64,000 bases of DNA from Cupriavidus gilardii (lineage in GTDB: Bacteria > Pseudomonadota > Gammaproteobacteria > Burkholderiales > Burkholderiaceae). Each line of letters opens with the position of its first letter. The first letter of the stretch is position 1. Both the position numbers and the translations under genes were made by a program. This document shows, piece by piece, positions 37,092 to 44,880 of this stretch. The stretch spans positions 62,001-126,000 of the forward strand of contig NZ_VZOV01000010.1 in the NCBI RefSeq assembly GCF_008801915.1, written 5' to 3'. The notes under the pieces were generated by a model. That model did not search any database. It saw nothing but the letters and a program-made list of their open reading frames with translations, and was not told the DNA's origin.

Positions 37092-37948
37092 AGACGATCG
37101 CCATCGTCGCGCCGGTCGGCGGCGCGGGCCGCAGCACGGTGACCGCCGCGCTGGCCTCGCTGCTGGCCGGACGCGGGCATGCCGTGCTGGCGCTGGAATG
37201 CGATCCGCGCAATCTGCTGGGCCTGCATTTCGGCCTGCGCGAGCCCGTCGAACGGGGACTGGTCGACGCGGCCCTGCGGCCATCGGCGAGCGACTGGGCC
37301 GCGGCGGCGCTGCGCAGCGACGACGACGTGCTGCTGCTGCCGTGGGGTCAGGCCGATGGTGTGCATGGCGGCGCCGATCGCAATGACGGTGGCGCCAATG
37401 CCGACGCCGACGCCGATGCCAATGCCGACGCCAATGCCGAGGCCGCCGCCACGCGATGCCTGCTCGAGCGGCCGCACTGGCTGCGCACGCTGCTGGCGCA
37501 GGTCGACCTGCCAGACGACGGCATCGTGCTGGTCGATACGCCGGCCTGGCCGGCCCCGCATGCCGCGCAGGCCCTCGCGGCCGCCGATCTGGCACTGGTG
37601 CTGGCGCCGCCCGAGCCCGAAGTGTGCGCCACGCTCCCGCGCCTGCAGCACGCGCTGGAACGGATCGCCCTGCCCTATCGCGTGGTCGCAACGCGGGTCC
37701 AGCCGGCGCGCCAGCTGCATGGCGATGTGCTGGCGCTGCTGCGCACCCGGCTGCGCGAGCGGCTGCTGCCCTATCAGGTGCACCTGGATCACGGCCTGCC
37801 CGAAGCGCTCGCGCGCGGCGAGAATTTCTGCCGCGCGATGCCGCATTCGCAGGCCGCGCACGATCTGCAGGGCATCGCGGCCTGGCTGTCGCAGTGGGTC
37901 GCGGCATCGCTCGGCTCGGCCGCGGCCGATGCGGAGGCGCATCGATGA
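37088..37948 (+). CDS. bcsQ: Cellulose synthase MinD-like ATPase BcsQ
   Basis: 286-residue ParA/MinD-type ATPase involved in localising the secretion complex. The Walker A region reads PVGGAGRSTVTAAL: both signature lysines are replaced, a degeneracy also seen in BcsQ homologues such as the enterobacterial GGVGTTT version. VLVDTPAWPAP corresponds to Walker B. A hydrophilic Ala-Asn/Asp repeat (about residues 103-121) from a hexanucleotide array interrupts the fold and would be a surface loop. ATGA overlaps at both ends with bcsF and bcsA. Confidence 0.88.
   Translation: MKTIAIVAPVGGAGRSTVTAALASLLAGRGHAVLALECDPRNLLGLHFGLREPVERGLVDAALRPSASDWAAAALRSDDDVLLLPWGQADGVHGGADRNDGGANADADADANADANAEAAATRCLLERPHWLRTLLAQVDLPDDGIVLVDTPAWPAPHAAQALAAADLALVLAPPEPEVCATLPRLQHALERIALPYRVVATRVQPARQLHGDVLALLRTRLRERLLPYQVHLDHGLPEALARGENFCRAMPHSQAAHDLQGIAAWLSQWVAASLGSAAADAEAHR
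37394..37449 (+). repeat. Hexanucleotide repeat inside bcsQ encoding Ala-Asn/Asp
   Basis: Nine-fold GCC-NAY units (GCCAAT, GCCGAC, GCCGAT) in frame, giving (Ala-Asn/Asp) dipeptides. Repeat number changes here would keep the frame, producing length variants of the loop. Confidence 0.7.
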
Positions 37949-40512
37949 TTCTCGGCGTGCTGCTCGACCTGACCTTGCGGCTGCGTGCCGCCTTGGCGCA
38001 AGGCCTGGACCTTGGCGAGCAGCCGGCGCGCGGCGACTGGCTGGTGCGCCTGTTCTTCCGCCCGGCGCGGCCCGGCAAGCGCGACTGGCCGGCCGAGTTC
38101 GCCGCCTGGCTGTCGCGCCGCGGCGCCGAGCGTCTCGGCATCGATCCGCGGCATAGCCTGCCGCGCCGCGTATGGCGGCTCTTCGTACGGCCGCCCCGCC
38201 CGCGCCGGCGACTGGCAGCGCCGACGCGCCGGCGCAGCCTGCCGGAACAGCCGCCGCCGCAATCGGCGCTGCGCCGCTGGCTCGATCACCGGCTCGAGCC
38301 GGCCTACCGCTACGTCGCGCGCAAGCGGCGCCGGCTGGCGGCGCGGCTGCCGCGCGTCGACTGGATGCGCGCCAGCAGCGGCCTCGCACATGTGGCCGCG
38401 CTGGTGCATCGCGTGCGCGGCCTCGCGCCCACGCTGCTGGTACTGGCCGCGCTGACCGGACTGGTGTTGTGCACCACGCCGCTGCCGCTGGGCGGACAGC
38501 TGACGGTGTTCGCGCTGGTCTGGATCGCGGTAATGGTGCTGCGCAAGATTCCGGGGCGCTTCCCCACGCTGACGATGATGGCGCTGTCGCTGCTGATGAC
38601 GCTGCGCTATATCTGGTGGCGCGCCACCGAGACGCTGGACCTGGCCACGCCGATGGAGGTCACCATCGGCTATCTGCTGTTCGCCGCCGAGGCCTACACC
38701 TGGCTGGTGCTGATCCTCGGCTATGTGCAGACCGCCTGGCCGCTGTCGCGCCGGCCCAAGCCGATGCCGGCCGACCCCGCGCAATGGCCGACGGTCGACG
38801 TCTATATCCCGACCTACAACGAGCCGCTGTCGGTGGTGCAGCCGACCGTCTACGCCGCGCGCAGCCTCGACTGGCCCAGCGGCAAGCTGAACATCTACCT
38901 GCTCGACGACGGCCGCCGGCCGCAGATGCAGGCCTTCGCCGAGCAGGCCGGAATTCACTATCTGACCCGCGGCGACAATCGCCACGCCAAGGCCGGCAAC
39001 ATCAACCATGCGCTGTCGGTCACGCAGGGGGACTACATCGCGATCTTCGATTGCGACCACATTCCGACGCGCTCCTTCCTGCAGATGACGATGGGCGAGT
39101 TCATCGCCGATCCGCGCTGCGCGATGGTACAGACGCCCCACCACTTCTTCTCGCCCGATCCGTTCGAGCGCAACTTCGATACCTTCCGCCGCGTGCCCAA
39201 CGAGGGCAGCCTGTTCTACGGGCTGATCCAGGACGGCAACGACCTGTGGAACGCGGCGTTCTTCTGCGGATCGTGCGCGGTGATCAAGCGCGCGCCGCTG
39301 GCCGAAATCGGCGGCATCGCGGTCGAGACGGTGACCGAGGACGCGCACACGGCGCTCAAGCTGCACCGGCGCGGCTACAACACGGCGTACCTGCGCACGG
39401 TGCAGGCGGCGGGCCTGGCCACCGAAAGCCTGGCCAGCCATATCGGCCAGCGCATCCGCTGGGCGCGCGGCATGGCGCAGATCTTCCGCATCGACAACCC
39501 GCTGCTCGGCAAGGGGCTCAAGCTGTTCCAGCGGCTGTGCTATTCGAACGCGATGCTGCATTTCTTCTACGGCATCCCGCGGCTGATCTTCCTGACGATG
39601 CCGCTCGCCTATCTGGTGTTCGGCATGCACGTGATCAACACTTCCGCGGCGATGATCGCGGCCTACGTGCTGCCCTATCTGGTGATCGCCAACATCACGA
39701 ACTCGCGCATCCAGGGCAAGTATCGCCACTCGTTCTGGGCCGAGGTCTACGAGTCGGTGCTCGCGTGGTACATCGTGCTGCCGACCACGATGGCCTTCAT
39801 CAATCCGCGGCTGGGCAAGTTCAACGTGACGGCCAAGGGCGGGCGGATCGAGGACGACTATCTGGACTGGACGATCTCCAAGCCCTATCTGCTGCTGCTC
39901 GCACTGAACGTGATCGGCCTCGGCATGGGCGTGGGCCGGCTGCTGATGGGCACGACCACCGAACCGGGCACGGTGGTGATGAACATGGTCTGGGCCAGCG
40001 TCAACCTGCTGATGCTGGGCGCCGCGATCGGCGTCGCCAAGGAAGCGCGCCAGGTGCGCGTGTCGCACCGGATTCCGATGCGCGTGCCGGCCACGCTGCT
40101 GCTGCCGGATGGCACCACGCTGGCCTGCAAGACCGAGGACTATTCGCTCGGCGGCCTGGGGCTGCTGCTGCCGATCGACGTGGCACTGAACGAGGGCGAC
40201 CGCGTCGGCGTCTGCCTGTCGCGGGGCGCGCGCGAATATCACTTCGCCGCCACGGTGGCGCGCAACGTCAACCGCCACCTCGGCGTGCGGATGCAGGACC
40301 TGAGCCCGGAAGCCGAGACCCAGCTGATCCAGTGCACCTTCGGCCGTGCCGACGCGTGGATCGACTGGCTCGACGACCAGCCGCGCGATGCGCCGCTGCG
40401 CGGGCTCAAGGAGGTCATCGAGATGGGATATCAGGGCTTCCTGCGGCTGTACGACGCCGCGCTCGACATGCTCGAGGCCGCGCTGGCACGGCGGCGAACG
40501 CGCCAGTCATGA
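37945..40512 (+). CDS. bcsA: Cellulose synthase catalytic subunit BcsA (UDP-forming)
   Basis: 855-residue inner-membrane GT2 processive synthase making beta-1,4-glucan from UDP-glucose. Intact motifs: DDG (IYLLDDGRR), DxD (IFDCDHIPT), FFCGS, TED (ETVTEDAHT), QRIRW (GQRIRWARG). The cytoplasmic PilZ domain follows the last helices with RVSHR (RxxxR) and DYSLGG, so c-di-GMP control should be functional. The N-terminal 150 residues are Arg-rich and longer than in the core enzyme. Start ATG overlaps the bcsQ stop; the open frame from 37456 is a shadow of bcsQ. Confidence 0.95.
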   Translation: MILGVLLDLTLRLRAALAQGLDLGEQPARGDWLVRLFFRPARPGKRDWPAEFAAWLSRRGAERLGIDPRHSLPRRVWRLFVRPPRPRRRLAAPTRRRSLPEQPPPQSALRRWLDHRLEPAYRYVARKRRRLAARLPRVDWMRASSGLAHVAALVHRVRGLAPTLLVLAALTGLVLCTTPLPLGGQLTVFALVWIAVMVLRKIPGRFPTLTMMALSLLMTLRYIWWRATETLDLATPMEVTIGYLLFAAEAYTWLVLILGYVQTAWPLSRRPKPMPADPAQWPTVDVYIPTYNEPLSVVQPTVYAARSLDWPSGKLNIYLLDDGRRPQMQAFAEQAGIHYLTRGDNRHAKAGNINHALSVTQGDYIAIFDCDHIPTRSFLQMTMGEFIADPRCAMVQTPHHFFSPDPFERNFDTFRRVPNEGSLFYGLIQDGNDLWNAAFFCGSCAVIKRAPLAEIGGIAVETVTEDAHTALKLHRRGYNTAYLRTVQAAGLATESLASHIGQRIRWARGMAQIFRIDNPLLGKGLKLFQRLCYSNAMLHFFYGIPRLIFLTMPLAYLVFGMHVINTSAAMIAAYVLPYLVIANITNSRIQGKYRHSFWAEVYESVLAWYIVLPTTMAFINPRLGKFNVTAKGGRIEDDYLDWTISKPYLLLLALNVIGLGMGVGRLLMGTTTEPGTVVMNMVWASVNLLMLGAAIGVAKEARQVRVSHRIPMRVPATLLLPDGTTLACKTEDYSLGGLGLLLPIDVALNEGDRVGVCLSRGAREYHFAATVARNVNRHLGVRMQDLSPEAETQLIQCTFGRADAWIDWLDDQPRDAPLRGLKEVIEMGYQGFLRLYDAALDMLEAALARRRTRQS

Positions 40513-40566
40513 GCCGGCGGCCGCCTCGACAGACCACACGCCCGAACTGCACATCCTGCGATCCAT

Positions 40567-42168
40567 ATGGGACTCTGGAACCTCTACTTCGCCGCCAAGC
40601 TGTACCTGTTCGCGATCGGACAGGTGCAGCCGCGCTGGCTGCTCAACCTGCTGTTCGCGCTGTGGCTCGTGCTGCCGCTCGAACACCGCGGCCTGCGCGT
40701 GCTGCGCCAGGTGCTGGCGGTGGTGGTCGGCGTGGCGCTGCTGTACCACGAATCGAACCTGCCGCCGTTCGCGCGCGTGATGTCGCAGTTCTCGAACCTC
40801 AGCGCCTTCACGCCGGCCTATCTGCTCGAACTGCTGCAGCGCTTCGTCAGTCCGAACCTGGTGCTGGGCGCGATCGTCGTCACGCTGGGCTATCTGGTGA
40901 TCAACCGCTGGGTCCGCGTCACCACCTTCGTGCTGCTCGCGCTGATCGTGGTGCCGCTGTGGCAAGGCACCGGCACGGTGCCAACCGGGACGGCGGCAAC
41001 CGGCACCGGCGCGGCGCGCGGCCCGCAACGGCCGGCCCCGACCATGCGGATCGACAGCCCGGCCGAAGTGGGCGACAACGAGGCGCAGCTGAACGCCTTT
41101 CGCGCGCAGGAGGCCACGCGCCAGGTCGCGTTCACGCCGATCAGCGCCTCGCCCGACAGTCAGTTCGACATCATCGTGCTGCACGTCTGTTCGCTGTCCT
41201 GGGACGATCTCGATGTCGCCAAGGCGCGCAATCACCCGCTGCTGTCGCGCTTCGACTATCTGTTCACCGAGTTCAGCTCGGCGGCGAGCTACAGCGGTCC
41301 GGCCGCGATCCGGCTGCTGCGCGCGGCGTGCGGCCAGCAGCCGCACCAGGCGCTGTACTCCCCGGCGCAGGGGCAATGCCATCTGTTCGAGGCGCTGGCG
41401 CAGGCCGGCTTCGATACGCGCGTGCTGATGAACCACGATGGCCGCTTCGACAATTTCCGTGGCTTCGTCGACAAGGAAATCGGCATTCCGAACGTCACCC
41501 ATGTGCCGGTCGACGGCGTGCCGCCGGCAATGCGGGCCTTCGACAATTCGCCGATCCTCGGCGACTTCGCGGTACTGGAGAAGTGGTACAAGGCGCGGCT
41601 CGCGCAGAACGGCGGACCGCAGGCGCTGTACTACAACACGGTCACGCTGCACGACGGCAACCGCCTGCCGGATTCGAAGCTGACCAGCATCCAGTCGTAT
41701 CCGCTGCGGCTGACGCGGCTGCTCGACGATATCGACAAGCTGATCGCGATGATCGCGCAGTCTGGCCGCAAGGCGGTGGTGGTGTTCGTGCCCGAGCACG
41801 GCGCGGCGCTGCGTGGCGATGCCAACCAGATCGCCGGCATGCGGGAGATTCCCACGCCGCGGATCGTCCATGTGCCGGTGGGGGTCAAGCTGATCGGGTT
41901 GCAGGGTGCCGATGCAGGCGGCAACGACAAAGCCGCCACCGGCCCGGTGACGATTCACGCGCCGAGCAGCTATCTGGCGCTGTCGCAGCTGTTGTCGAAT
42001 CTGGTTGCGGACAGTCCGTTCCGGCAAGGCGCGCCCGCGCCGTCGCAGTATGCGGCGGACCTGCCGCAGACGCGGATGGTCGGCGAGAACGAGGCGACCG
42101 TGATGATGAAGCGCGGAACCGGCTACGTGGTACGCACGCCCGACGGCGTATGGGTGGACGGCAAATGA
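40567..42168 (+). CDS. bcsG: Cellulose phosphoethanolamine transferase BcsG
   Basis: 533 residues. Four N-terminal membrane helices (about 1-135), then a Ser/Thr/Gly/Pro linker, then a periplasmic alkaline-phosphatase-fold domain. The catalytic serine is in SAASYSGPAAIRLLRAACGQ and the zinc site includes HVCSLSWDD and the VPEHGAAL motif. Adds phosphoethanolamine from phospholipid to cellulose, so this organism probably makes pEtN-cellulose. Gap of 54 nt from bcsA; 3' end overlaps bcsR-like gene as ATGA. Confidence 0.92.
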   Translation: MGLWNLYFAAKLYLFAIGQVQPRWLLNLLFALWLVLPLEHRGLRVLRQVLAVVVGVALLYHESNLPPFARVMSQFSNLSAFTPAYLLELLQRFVSPNLVLGAIVVTLGYLVINRWVRVTTFVLLALIVVPLWQGTGTVPTGTAATGTGAARGPQRPAPTMRIDSPAEVGDNEAQLNAFRAQEATRQVAFTPISASPDSQFDIIVLHVCSLSWDDLDVAKARNHPLLSRFDYLFTEFSSAASYSGPAAIRLLRAACGQQPHQALYSPAQGQCHLFEALAQAGFDTRVLMNHDGRFDNFRGFVDKEIGIPNVTHVPVDGVPPAMRAFDNSPILGDFAVLEKWYKARLAQNGGPQALYYNTVTLHDGNRLPDSKLTSIQSYPLRLTRLLDDIDKLIAMIAQSGRKAVVVFVPEHGAALRGDANQIAGMREIPTPRIVHVPVGVKLIGLQGADAGGNDKAATGPVTIHAPSSYLALSQLLSNLVADSPFRQGAPAPSQYAADLPQTRMVGENEATVMMKRGTGYVVRTPDGVWVDGK

Positions 42169-42434
42169 CGGATGGCGAGCGCAAGCGCGGCGGACCGCGG
42201 CGCGGCCTGCGGGCGCGGCACACGCCGCGGCCCAACAACGATATCGAGGCGCTGGCGATGAAGGTGCCGGGCTTTGCCGCGCAACGCTATGTCGACGAGC
42301 AGGAAGCCCAGGCGGCCCGCGCCGCCGCGACGCGCTGGCCGCGGCTGGCGGGATGGCTGGGCTATGGGGAAAACGGCGAGCCGGAAGATCACGCCTTCGT
42401 CGATGCGCCGGCGCTCAGGCCGACGCCGCGTTGA
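42165..42434 (+). CDS. bcsR: BcsR-like small protein at the end of the cellulose operon
   Basis: 89 residues. After a basic N-terminal tail, the segment NNDIEALAMKVPGFAAQRYV leads into DEQEAQAARAAATRWPRLAG. This resembles BcsR (YhjR), whose hallmark is a short helix pair with D-I-x-x-L, a tyrosine and a closing A-x-x-R-W-P-L-L-A. In enterobacteria BcsR is encoded before bcsQ and stabilises the BcsRQ complex; here it is last. Overlaps bcsG by ATGA and converges with the TetR gene with a 20-bp overlap of the 3' ends. Identification from motif only. Confidence 0.6.
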   Translation: MTDGERKRGGPRRGLRARHTPRPNNDIEALAMKVPGFAAQRYVDEQEAQAARAAATRWPRLAGWLGYGENGEPEDHAFVDAPALRPTPR

Positions 42435-43188
42435 GGGCCTGCGGCTCGTTGTTCGGCTCGTTGTTCGGCTCGTTGTTCGGCTCGCTGTTCGGCTCGTTAT
42501 GCGGGTCGTTGTTCGGCTCGTCCGCCCCGGTTTCGACGGAAGCCGCCGAGACCAACGCCGAGGCATTGGACCCTGCCACCGCTGCCAGCAGCAGATTCGC
42601 CGCCGGCTCGAGGCGCTCGGCCTGATTGAACAATCGCACGGACACCAGGCTGTTCTGCAGCGCGGCGAACAACACCTGCGCCAGCGCCGCCGAGCTGATT
42701 GCCGGTTGCGCATCGGCCCCGTTCTGCTCGCGTGCGCGATCCAGCAGCGCCGTCAGCCAGCTTTCGTTGATCCGATGAAACTCCTGCAGCGCGCGATGCA
42801 CCACCGGGGGCAGGCACAGCGCCTCTGTCGACAGCATGCCCGCCAGGCATACCTGCTGCCCGCCACATTCGCGCCGCCACGATGCCAGATAGCGTTCGGC
42901 CTGCTGCAGCGGCGGCAGCGTCGGATCGATGTCGGCCAGATAGCGCGCGGCACGCTCGCTGTAGGCGTTCACCGCTTCGAGCGCCAGGTCTTCCTTGGTC
43001 GGGAAGTAGTAGTGGATGCTCGACGTCTTGACGCCGACACGCTCGGCCAGATCGCGATAGCTGAAGCCGTTGAAGCCCCGCTTGCGGATCAGGTCGAACG
43101 TATGTTCGAGCAGCCGGTCACGCACCGTCGAACTCGCGCCGGCCGGATGAGCCCGGCCGGCGGAGCGGGAAGTCGAAGCGTCTTTCAT
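42415..43188 (-). CDS. TetR/AcrR-family transcriptional regulator (NemR-like)
   Basis: 257 residues. N-terminal HTH (about 25-72) with FSYRDLAERVGVKTSSIHYYF followed by PTKEDLALEAV, close to the NemR/YcdC type. The ligand/dimer domain has ECGGQQVCLAGMLSTEALCL with three cysteines, the kind of segment that is redox- or electrophile-sensitive in NemR. The C-terminus ends in a low-complexity tail of Asn-Glu-Pro-Asn repeats (about 225-248). ATG at 43188 has GGAGGG upstream. It follows the YTDGAR-repeat gene by 47 nt on the same strand, suggesting one autoregulated operon. Confidence 0.85.
   Translation of the reverse strand: MKDASTSRSAGRAHPAGASSTVRDRLLEHTFDLIRKRGFNGFSYRDLAERVGVKTSSIHYYFPTKEDLALEAVNAYSERAARYLADIDPTLPPLQQAERYLASWRRECGGQQVCLAGMLSTEALCLPPVVHRALQEFHRINESWLTALLDRAREQNGADAQPAISSAALAQVLFAALQNSLVSVRLFNQAERLEPAANLLLAAVAGSNASALVSAASVETGADEPNNDPHNEPNSEPNNEPNNEPNNEPQALNAASA
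42442..42513. repeat. 12-bp tandem repeat in the 3' end of the TetR gene
   Basis: Six units of GGCTCGTTGTTC (three exact, three with 1-3 changes). In the TetR frame they encode Asn-Glu-Pro-Asn repeats. Unit length divisible by 3 keeps the frame on expansion or loss. Confidence 0.8.
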
Positions 43189-43235
43189 GACATGCCCTCC
43201 CCCGCTACCACGAGCGGCCGTTGCGGTATTGCCCT

Positions 43236-43865
43236 TCAAACGTTGGCACCTTCGGTGAAAACGTCGAACTGACCTTGACGCGCGCCTTCGGTGAAGACAT
43301 CGAAGCGGCCCTGGCGGGCGCCGTCGGTGTACGGGCTGCGCGACGGCTCGGCCGAGACGCCGGTGCGATCCAGGCCGGCGACGATGCGAGCGCCGTCCGT
43401 GTACGGGTCGAACTTGCCGCTGCGCGCGCCGTCGGTGAACTGATCGACGCTGCGGGCGCCGTCGGTGTACTGGTCGACGCTGCGGGCAGGGCTGGCCGAC
43501 ACGCCGGTGCGGTCCAGGCCGGCGAGCACACGTGCCCCATCGGTGTACGGATCGAACTTGCCGCTGCGGGCGCCGTCGGTGAACTGATCAACGCTGCGGG
43601 CGCCGTCGGTGTACTGGTCGACGCTGCGGGCGGGGCTAGCCGACACGCCGGTGCGATCCAGGCCGGCGACGATGCGCGCGCCATCGGTATAGGGATCGGC
43701 CTTGCCGCTGCGTGCACCGTCGACATAAGTGCTGCGCTCGCCGGCGCGGAATTCGTAGCCGTACTTGTCGGCGGGAACGGTGGCAGCCTGAGCGGTACCG
43801 GCGACGAAAGCGGCGGCAAGGGTGGCGGCGGTCAACAGGGACTTGGCGAAGGTACGGTTGGTCAT
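43236..43865 (-). CDS. Secreted YTDGAR-repeat protein, unknown function
   Basis: 209 residues. Signal peptide (about 1-28, cleaved after AGTAQA), so periplasmic or extracellular. The mature protein consists almost wholly of [YF]-[TV]-[DE]-G-A-[RN] hexapeptides: eleven copies, joined by RSVDQ, RSGKFDP and the longer link IVAGLDRTGVSASPA. A 48-residue unit is present twice in tandem. No cysteines and no enzyme motif; basic and acidic residues alternate, hinting at a ligand- or metal-binding or disordered coat protein. Strong ribosome-binding site (AAAGGAGC). Likely co-transcribed with the TetR gene. I do not recognise a characterised family. Confidence 0.8.
   Translation of the reverse strand: MTNRTFAKSLLTAATLAAAFVAGTAQAATVPADKYGYEFRAGERSTYVDGARSGKADPYTDGARIVAGLDRTGVSASPARSVDQYTDGARSVDQFTDGARSGKFDPYTDGARVLAGLDRTGVSASPARSVDQYTDGARSVDQFTDGARSGKFDPYTDGARIVAGLDRTGVSAEPSRSPYTDGARQGRFDVFTEGARQGQFDVFTEGANV
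43437..43724. repeat. 144-bp tandem duplication inside the YTDGAR gene
   Basis: Segment starting GAACTGATCGACGCTGCGGG (43437) recurs at 43581 with one change (GAACTGATCAACGCTGCGGG), an offset of exactly 144 bp. Each unit encodes three hexapeptides plus the GLDRTGVSASPA link. Confidence 0.85.
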
Positions 43866-43944
43866 GATCAGCTCCTTTCGGGGATCCGCGCCTGGCGGAT
43901 CGAATCGGTCAATGTGGAATCCGGCTGTCGAATCTACGAACCAC

Positions 43945-43958
43945 ATCTACTAGTAGAT
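43945..43958. promoter_or_regulatory. 14-bp perfect palindrome (operator 1)
   Basis: ATCTACTAGTAGAT, fully self-complementary, 80 bp before the repeat-protein start. Its ATCTAC/GTAGAT arms recur in the second dyad at 44064-44083. Likely TetR binding site, autoregulating the operon. Confidence 0.6.
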
Positions 43959-43973
43959 AGATAACCTGACTCG

Positions 43974-43996
43974 AAAAAAACCCGGATTCCCGGGGT
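43974..43996 (-). terminator. Leader terminator / attenuator upstream of the repeat-protein gene
   Basis: On the minus strand CCCGG-GAAT-CCGGG is followed by seven T. It lies about 65-85 nt downstream of the promoter at 44060-44088 and upstream of the gene, so it would either release a short RNA or attenuate the operon. Confidence 0.55.
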
Positions 43997-44059
43997 TGTT
44001 GCGTGGACTTGAGTGCCGCTTCACTTCTTCTTCGGTGCGGCGTCGCGTCCATGTGGTCT

Positions 44060-44088
44060 ACTTTATCTACTACTAGGTAGATAGTCAA
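44060..44088 (-). promoter_or_regulatory. Promoter with dyad (operator 2) filling the spacer
   Basis: Minus strand: TTGACT (44083-44088), 17-nt spacer, TAAAGT (44060-44065). The inverted repeat TATCTAC-N6-GTAGATA (44064-44083) fills the spacer, the classic layout for TetR-type repression by blocking RNA polymerase. Drives the repeat protein and TetR genes. Confidence 0.65.
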
Positions 44089-44284
44089 GGAGTTTTTTCG
44101 ATCGCTTCCGTCAGGGTCGCTGGCGCCCATAATGCTTCGATACTGGACCGCCCTTTGCGGGGCGCCGGAAAATGCACTTAACGCGGTCACTCCGAGTCGC
44201 CTCAAGTTGTATCGAGCGAGCGCATCGAGGCCGAAGCGGCCTCCGATCGGACCGCGCATTCCCTGCCTTCACGAGGAGACTTCC

Positions 44285-44686
44285 ATGCAGATCCAACGCG
44301 GCCGCCTGATCGACCATCTCCATCTGAAAGTCCGCGACCTCGCCGCCTCCCGCCGCTTCTACGGCGCGGTGCTGGGCGTGCTTGGCATCGCCATCACCGA
44401 CGGCGATGGCTATTTCTACGCCGACGAGCTGTGGGTCGACGAAGGCACGCCCGGCCAGATCACCCACGCCCACTTCGCCTTCCAGGCCAAGGACCGCGAC
44501 ACCGTCGAGGCCTTCTACAAGGCCGGCCTCGCCGCCGACGGCCGCGACAACGGCGGCCCTGGCGAGCGGACCTACCACCCCGGCTATTACGCGGCGTTCC
44601 TGCTGGACCCCGACGGGAACAACGTCGAGGCGGTCTACCACGGGCCACACCAGCGATCGTCGGAAGCGGTGGTGATCAGTTGGTGA
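44285..44686 (+). CDS. VOC-family protein (glyoxalase/bleomycin-resistance fold)
   Basis: 133 residues, one vicinal-oxygen-chelate domain with paired beta-alpha-beta modules. LIDHLHLKVRDLAASRRFYG begins it, with the first metal-ligand His, and LDPDGNNVEAVYH ends it with the ligand Glu. Could be a metal-dependent lyase, dioxygenase or a resistance protein. GAGGAGA precedes the ATG. Divergent from the TetR/repeat operon; in E. coli the related regulator NemR controls the glyoxalase gene gloA, which makes shared control plausible. Confidence 0.85.
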   Translation: MQIQRGRLIDHLHLKVRDLAASRRFYGAVLGVLGIAITDGDGYFYADELWVDEGTPGQITHAHFAFQAKDRDTVEAFYKAGLAADGRDNGGPGERTYHPGYYAAFLLDPDGNNVEAVYHGPHQRSSEAVVISW

Positions 44687-44789: not shown

Positions 44790-44880
44790 GGAGAGATGGA
44801 TGAGTGGTTTAAGTCGCACGCCTGGAAAGCGTGTATGGGTTAATAGCCCATCGGGGGTTCGAATCCCCCTCTCTCCGCCA
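44790..44880 (+). tRNA. tRNA-Ser (anticodon GGA)
   Basis: 91 nt including CCA, with a long variable arm. Acceptor GGAGAGA pairs with TCTCTCC. The anticodon stem CACGC/GCGTG encloses CTGGAAA, giving GGA. Variable arm TATGGGTTAATAGCCCAT region, T-arm GGGGGTTCGAATCCCCC. tRNA-Ser genes are common integration sites, and a lower-GC stretch follows. Confidence 0.95.

Follow-up and report, generated by a model that had tools for sequence, protein, structure and literature searches.

Candidate two-step control of a CopQ-like repeat gene and its TetR-family regulator in Cupriavidus gilardii

The locus and its operators

The window analyzed here is a stretch of 64,000 nucleotides from Cupriavidus gilardii (assembly GCF_008801915.1, contig NZ_VZOV01000010.1, positions 62,001 to 126,000). 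Its minus strand carries, in this order, a promoter (TTGACT-17-TAAAGT), an operator (O1), the sequence CATGG, a leader with a short terminator, a second operator (O2), a Shine-Dalgarno sequence, a gene for a secreted repeat protein (43236-43865) and, 47 bp downstream, a gene for a TetR-family regulator. We give about even weight to the reading that leader, copQ-like repeat gene and tetR form a stress-inducible operon controlled by its own TetR at two steps, which would be initiation and termination of transcription. The locus is real and conserved and its protein family is already known; what is new is the control region. The features of the locus are as follows.

43236-43865, minus strand: repeat gene encoding a CopQ-like secreted protein, 209 amino acids, 11 hexapeptides (sequence; homology to the protein at the czcJ position)
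43785-43865, minus strand: likely signal peptide, about residues 1-27 (sequence; helix 4-25 in the AlphaFold model)
42415-43188, minus strand: TetR-family repressor, 257 amino acids, with Cys114 (open reading frame, TetR_N domain, alignment)
44083-44088, minus strand: -35 hexamer TTGACT (sequence; TTG here in all 81 regions)
44065-44082, minus strand: operator O1 core ATCTACCTAGTAGTAGAT, within the promoter spacer (pattern search, comparison of regions)
44060-44065, minus strand: -10 hexamer TAAAGT (sequence)
44049-44053, minus strand: CATGG at the predicted transcript 5' end, its A 12 nt after O1 (conserved distance)
43974-44053, minus strand: predicted leader RNA of about 80 nt, with a 5'-terminal hairpin and the terminator (folding)
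43981-43994, minus strand: leader terminator hairpin CCCGGGAATCCGGG (sequence, folding)
43974-43980, minus strand: U-tract (T7) of the terminator (sequence)
43963-43973, minus strand: spacer from U-tract to O2, 11 nt (9-11 in 80 regions; comparison of regions)
43945-43962, minus strand: operator O2 core ATCTATCTACTAGTAGAT (pattern search, comparison of regions)
43872-43877, minus strand: Shine-Dalgarno sequence AAGGAG of the repeat gene (sequence)
42430-42537, minus strand: 12-nt tandem repeat encoding the (PNNE)n tail at the TetR C-terminus (sequence repeat)
44285-44686, plus strand: VOC gene, Glyoxalase domain at E 9.3e-12 (profile match)

An earlier note, made from the letters of this DNA, had described two related dyads and a leader terminator upstream of the repeat gene, and these are present as described (O1, the terminator and O2), the O2 core lying about 91-108 bp downstream of the predicted transcription start. 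Searching the 5.79-Mb genome with an 18-bp operator pattern and up to 2 mismatches gave 6 matches, compared to 1 for the reversed control pattern, so the dyads exceed chance. Four of the six are the O1/O2 pairs of the window locus and of a second repeat-tetR locus, the only two loci of this genome with such pairs; of the remaining two, one is an other-strand reading of those sites and one lies at the second tetR start. Defining a site by a score of at least 15 of 18, and counting loci fetched twice as two, we found two operator-like sites in 105 and one in 1 of the 106 repeat-tetR pairs (of 114) that have at least 300 nt of upstream DNA. There were 53 repeat matches without an adjacent tetR, and among the 52 with full upstream DNA, 41 had no site, 3 had one and 8 had two. 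Of 398 genomes of the family, 140, from 9 of the 25 genera, contain the exact 19-nt operator pattern, compared to 0 occurrences of its reversed control among the matches listed.

The gene pair is conserved in the genus. Of 60 Cupriavidus genomes, 59 encode such a TetR (E up to 1e-20), among them all 54 of good quality; 58 of the 59 have at least two matches, sometimes in a tandem repeat-tetR-repeat-tetR order. The repeat gene adjoins tetR in all 30 loci compared, one from each of 30 Cupriavidus genomes. The operon of TetR and repeat protein with repeated operators that the earlier note described is thus kept in relatives, and its autoregulation by TetR would follow from this arrangement.

Spacing of terminator and second operator

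We compared 81 distinct O1-O2 regions of Cupriavidus, 8 of them without an adjacent tetR. A short terminator follows O1 in 80 of the 81, and O2 lies 9-11 nt past its U-tract: the end of the U-tract and the O2 core are separated by 9 nt in 7 of the 80 regions, by 10 nt in 52 and by 11 nt in 21 (standard deviation [sd] 0.57). O1 to the start of the U-tract is 74-111 nt (sd 7.7), and O2 to the start codon has an sd of 13.9 (n=76). The interval from O1 to O2 is 120 bp in the window, 99-147 nt in Cupriavidus and about 650-720 nt in genus g11, described below, which argues for a constraint on the distance from terminator to O2 and not on that from O1 to O2. Upstream, the O1 core lies 12 nt from the ATG of CATGG in 79 of 80 regions, and in the exception, L088, the pattern had hit the wrong place and the sequence also gives 12; one region has GTG in place of this ATG. 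The 23-nt terminator stretch folds at a mean of -6.53 kcal/mol compared to -3.31 for shuffles, and better than its own shuffles do on average in 59 of 59 distinct sequences, with stems of 3-7 pairs in the folds. T stands at 94-100% in six successive positions before O2. Between region pairs, the spacer from U-tract to O2 differs at about 0.55 of its sites and, in about half of the pairs, in its counted length, by at most 2.

The same spacing recurs under a different gene order in genus g11, which by one of its TetR sequences is Burkholderia or near it (the TetR of locus L146 is 90-95% identical to Burkholderia matches and about 77-78% to those of Paraburkholderia, from plasmid records). The 25 g11 loci were drawn from among the matches listed and so all carry an exact operator match. 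In each of them tetR starts 12 nt after O1, at the place of the Cupriavidus CATGG, and appears to be leaderless. One or two sites scoring at least 16 lie behind tetR (two in 19 of the 25 loci) and before ohr; these sites often each have their own terminator (L146-L148, L156, L157, L166-L185). A U-tract stands 10 nt before the last operator in 24 of the 25 loci, and 13 nt before it in L156 by the same rule. The g11 terminators are unrelated to those of Cupriavidus and mostly strong, with 22 distinct hairpin stretches among the 25 loci. An Ohr-family peroxiredoxin gene follows the operator in all 25 (the one scored reached 177.2 bits against the TIGR03561 cut-off of 88.85), and a secreted alpha/beta hydrolase is encoded in 20, the other five being short stretches. 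This association recalls OhrR and Ohr; the regulator here belongs to the TetR family, whereas OhrR is a MarR-family regulator.

The Cupriavidus regions also suggest how the two gene orders could be related. A third operator (score of at least 15) lies directly before tetR in 37 of 81 distinct tetR upstream regions, compared to 0 of 81 shuffled regions, and an ATG follows it at 11 or 12 nt in 36 of the 37 (for example L113, L116 and L211). The tetR of the window has no such site, the best score before it being 10 of 18. Because the third operator with its ATG resembles the leaderless, autoregulated tetR promoter of g11, we infer that O1-tetR-terminator-O2-target is the ancestral order and that a copy of this promoter, terminator and O2 came to control the copQ-like gene in Cupriavidus.

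The repeat protein, its CopQ-like relatives and the regulator

The repeat protein contains 11 [YF]x[DE]GA[RN] hexapeptides, at residues 47, 59, 85, 95, 107, 133, 143, 155, 179, 191 and 203, exactly the number that the earlier note had counted. Its description as made almost entirely of these hexapeptides goes too far, since the 48-residue units also contain a VAGLDRTGVSxxPxRS-type stretch. At the DNA level the gene is a 144-nt direct repeat in three copies at 100, 87 and 67%. The N-terminus is hydrophobic and ends in TAQA-A, as expected of the signal sequence of CopQ-like proteins, and the mature 182 residues include no Cys, His, Met or Trp, with 27 acidic and 23 basic residues. An AlphaFold model built with 19 sequences had a mean pLDDT of 42.5 and a pTM of 0.12, and only an N-terminal helix (residues 4-25) was formed; the product is predicted to be exported and disordered. 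No Pfam or NCBIfam family scored above its cut-off (best Pfam match 19.7 bits against 25, taken as chance), and there was no PDB match at E up to 1.

The earlier note knew of no characterized family with this repeat, a view that we revise: by its sequence the protein belongs with the CopQ-like proteins, a known family for which metal induction is reported, as a larger member. It matches a pMOL30 protein encoded between czcE and a porin gene, taken as CzcJ from gene position (pairwise BLASTP 8e-13, 51% identity over 55 amino acids), and the pMOL30 cop region encodes a small protein with four such motifs that is probably CopQ. Passages of PMC2864759 describe CzcJ, MmrQ and CopQ of CH34 as having a signal sequence and an RDXXTDG motif repeated 3-4 times, add mmmQ, mmtQ, mmsQ and the almost identical mmsQ1 as further metal-induced genes, and describe the family as restricted to Cupriavidus and Ralstonia. 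Elsewhere, 21 copQ homologues are mentioned for CH34 (in part of PMC7563307), and deletion derivatives of a silver-resistant mutant affecting the CopQ-like PrsQ1 and PrsQ2 are said to lose resistance (in part of PMC7380067). With CopQ, CzcJ, MmrQ, MmmQ, MmtQ, MmsQ and PrsQ1/PrsQ2, the repeat protein shares the signal sequence and repeated D-x-[YF]-T-D-G-[AG] motifs. It differs in size (209 amino acids and 11 hexapeptides compared to the 3-4 motifs described) and in the absence of the R before the D: a relaxed RDXXTDG without R recurs in the eleven hexapeptides, and the CH34 genes identified below as mmsQ and mmsQ1 likewise lack that R. The repeat gene is, moreover, paired with a TetR gene and does not lie within a metal-resistance locus. 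In its own 5.79-Mb genome the repeat protein has 14 matches at 11 places, itself included. A scan of species genomes gave 168 related stretches; the best 80 of the 168 (78 loci) are labelled Cupriavidus, Ralstonia sp. 25mfcol4.1 or 'Burkholderiaceae bacterium 16', the nearest named relatives among them, by the repeat gene, being Cupriavidus cauae and C. gilardii.

The CH34 chromid connects the operators to reported induction. Its repeat genes include those at 770793, 1058938, 1570804 and 2348838, and operators with at most 1 mismatch lie upstream of all of these except 1058938, near which none was found at that threshold. The loci at 1570804 and 2348838 have 758 bp in common, at 99.2%, as would fit mmsQ (Rmet_4908) and mmsQ1 (Rmet_5594). 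The positions of these two give about 881 genes per Mb, and interpolation then places 770793 at about Rmet_4203 (mmtQ is 4187) and 1058938 at about 4457 (mmmQ is 4461). The operator-bearing genes are thus probably mmtQ, mmsQ and mmsQ1, judged by position. According to passages of PMC2864759, these three are not linked to metal-resistance loci, and mmtQ responds strongly to Cd, Hg and Pb, moderately to Zn and not to Cu or Ni, an induction result given there as data not shown. We found no further paper under Rmet_4187/4188/4908/4909/5594/5595 in the open-access literature. A tetR of this kind stands beside 770793 and 1570804, and none was found in the 7-kb stretch around 2348838, so the candidate mmsQ1 is likely regulated in trans. 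Seven Cupriavidus loci (L159-L165) similarly have an operator-bearing repeat gene without a close tetR, two of them with a distant TetR match of 32-35%; genes of this kind point to a small regulon in trans.

The regulator itself is a TetR-family protein (TetR_N E 5.5e-12, 45.7 bits against a curated cut-off of 24), and its best PDB relatives, 3on4 and 2g7s (E about 1e-20), carry no more specific name than TetR-family regulator. All 73 aligned orthologues have Cys114, which falls on the redox cysteine Cys106 of E. coli NemR, compared to 48% with Cys108 and 38% with Cys125; around Cys114 the second TetR of the same genome reads CMC, and the aligned copies from g11, g9 and g6 have CLC. Because an Ohr gene adjoins relatives of this TetR elsewhere and soft metals are the inducers reported for mmtQ, our best guess is that TetR senses a thiol-reactive inducer through Cys114. 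The response to electrophiles, redox conditions or metals suggested in the earlier note would agree with this, and the Ohr neighbors and the reported mmtQ induction now favor it more.

Proposed two-step control and its alternatives

Our preferred interpretation of this arrangement is a switch with two gates. In the absence of inducer, TetR on O1 would cover the spacer between the -35 and -10 hexamers and block initiation. Polymerases that escape this block would make a short structured leader and arrive at the short intrinsic terminator, where TetR on O2, about 10 bp past the U-tract, would halt the front of the polymerase with the active site over the U-tract. Since RNA polymerase extends roughly 14-18 bp downstream of its active site, a block at O2 would leave the RNA 3' end within the U-tract, the place at which intrinsic terminators let go of the transcript, and a polymerase halted there would make the terminator highly efficient. 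The inducer, probably a thiol-reactive one acting via Cys114 (a soft metal such as Cd, Hg or Pb, an organic hydroperoxide or an electrophile), would free TetR from both operators and allow free initiation and read-through into the repeat gene and tetR, after which new TetR would reset the switch. The binding of TetR, the roadblock termination and the inducer, like any role of the repeat protein in metal or envelope stress, are what we infer from sequence. The short Cupriavidus stems would go well with a terminator that leaks when TetR is absent; the longer g11 stems are harder to fit. Slightly short of even weight goes to a broader form of the proposal, a portable repressor-gated terminator in which a TetR operator about 10 bp past an intrinsic terminator, used in several Burkholderiaceae gene orders, lets the repressor make a leaky terminator tight. 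In Cupriavidus it would split transcription between a structured leader RNA and the mRNA of a metal-induced protein.

Known systems resemble this design in part. In roadblock repression by LacI, CcpA and CodY (PMC4132739), a repressor bound downstream of the promoter halts polymerase during elongation, and here too an operator lies downstream of the predicted start; what sets the present case apart is an intrinsic terminator at a near-fixed distance before the operator. In eukaryotic Pol I terminators, a T-rich element is followed by a Reb1 site, and both arrangements place a protein block about one helical turn downstream of a release element, although Pol I is another polymerase and its terminators are not controlled by an inducer. 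We found no paper on a repressor-gated terminator in the open-access literature, judged from titles and the starts of abstracts. Neither the assignment of this regulator nor the terminator-operator geometry was found in that literature, again mostly at the level of titles and abstract starts.

Several observations weigh against two-step control. Region L101 has no U-tract. A short spacer offers few chances for insertions or deletions, and descent may keep part of the spacing. With a third operator before tetR in 37 of 81 tetR upstream regions, tetR would often have its own promoter. The g11 terminators are mostly strong, and it is hard to see how polymerase would pass them even without TetR. 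The assignment of mmtQ and mmsQ depends on interpolated gene numbers. In six of seven tetR loci from genera g9 (L149-L151, L154, L158) and g6 (L153), no U-tract was recognized before the second site; L155 is the sole member of this set with one, at 10 nt. Four of these seven loci carry the hydrolase and one (L153) the Ohr gene, and an eighth locus, L152, was dropped as it has no such tetR. The terminator-O2 unit is therefore recurrent and not universal.

A possible reading, doubtful in our estimate and compatible with two-step control, is that the leader is a TetR-controlled small RNA and the mRNA its read-through product. Of 80 leaders, we tested the 74 that have CCA followed by GC[AG] within 3 nt and omitted the 6 without this motif. 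In all 74, the 5' domain was more stably folded than its dinucleotide shuffles were on average (mean z -1.70, with 53 leaders below -1). The pairing of the 5' UGG with CCA had a mean probability of 0.57, compared to 0.17 with the interior shuffled, and exceeded 0.5 in 44 of 74 leaders compared to 53 of 370 interior-shuffled controls. Clade-wise alignments gave a 5' hairpin and a terminator stem in 8 of 8 cases, with differing closing pairs, and in 19 aligned necator-type leaders the named structure paired 90.8% of cells, compared to 27-59% when slid. No Rfam family matched the leader (43974-44053) at E up to 1. On the other hand, only 1 of 16 pairs in those 19 leaders was changed on both sides, no more than in shuffles (mean 1.6), double-sided changes numbered 0-3 per clade, and RNAalifold on a MAFFT alignment of 33 diverse leaders gave no pairs. 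The 5'-terminal hairpin is thus supported by folding and weakly by covariation. A translated leader peptide starting at CATGG was rejected: the open frames vary widely and pass O2 in 31 of 81 regions, near the estimate from base composition. The Rfam model RF02949 ('Cupriavidus-1 RNA'), on which we found no paper in the open-access literature, matches the 3' end of tetR and the hairpin behind it in L129 (5783-5859); it is a different element from this leader, and the match may simply be the tetR end and terminator.

Somewhat less probable is plain two-operator repression, in which O1 blocks initiation, O2 acts as a simple roadblock or as a safeguard against read-through, and the terminator serves only to end a leader RNA, its distance to O2 having no function. 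Passages of PMC4132739 report that LacI roadblocks in E. coli stall polymerase without a terminator and that the stalled polymerase is removed mostly by Mfd, and the six g9 and g6 loci with a second site and no recognized U-tract would fit such a scheme. It leaves unexplained why the spacing is 9-11 nt in all 80 Cupriavidus regions with a U-tract and 10 nt in 24 of the 25 g11 loci, whose hairpins are unrelated. With a terminator placed where polymerase stalls, release could be immediate. Since no good -10 or -35 was seen around O2 in our reading of the aligned Cupriavidus regions, O2 is not an obvious second promoter.

Cooperation of O1 and O2 by DNA looping is improbable: two similar sites 120 bp apart would permit it in the window, and the variation of this interval within Cupriavidus and up to about 650-720 bp in g11, beside a nearly fixed terminator-O2 distance, argues against it. 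We attach slightly less weight still to the idea that the T-run is a DNA-shape element aiding TetR binding one helical turn away and no terminator. Upstream of O1, at a similar distance, the DNA is A/T-rich as well, but A and T are mixed in that flank and form no constant run, compared to the T-run at six positions before O2, which moreover lies behind a stretch that folds as a hairpin.

As improbable is the idea of the earlier note, an electrophile unit of the NemR/GloA kind with the divergent VOC gene as a member. In its favor, Cys114 aligns with Cys106 of E. coli NemR, likewise a TetR-family protein, and in E. coli nemR precedes nemA and gloA. The two regulators are only 22% identical in the alignment, BLASTP of the pair (E 7e-06) covers 67 residues of the DNA-binding domain alone, their neighbor genes differ and no nemA-like gene was present among the neighbors scored, so the protein does not qualify as a NemR orthologue; the description NemR-like holds loosely, for the cysteine and not for overall identity. 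The VOC gene does not appear to be part of the unit. It adjoins the pair in only six genomes at the loci examined (the C. gilardii genome itself, G009, G011, G012, G048 and G051), and the 202 bp upstream of its start contain no operator site besides O1. Of the TetR-repeat-VOC arrangement proposed earlier, the pair recurs, and the three-gene order looks like a feature of one clade; of the 73 aligned orthologues, the 5 with TetR tails longer than 25 residues all come from loci with a VOC neighbor. Just behind the VOC gene lies a tRNA gene (44790-44877), overlapped by an sX4 sRNA match below the family cut-off. On the other side, past tetR, plus-strand genes include BcsG of cellulose synthesis, and 37456-42434 holds cellulose-synthesis genes (a cellulose synthase with a PilZ domain, BcsG and a weak BcsR-like match).

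Reports of metal induction of CopQ-like genes go back to 2010, and the passages of PMC2864759 concerned name no regulator for mmtQ, mmsQ and mmsQ1. The sequence comparison presented here proposes a regulator, its sites and a likely sensing residue for such genes, so that their induction becomes directly testable. If two-step control holds, one repressor and two copies of one site would govern both initiation and termination, giving tight repression from simple parts.

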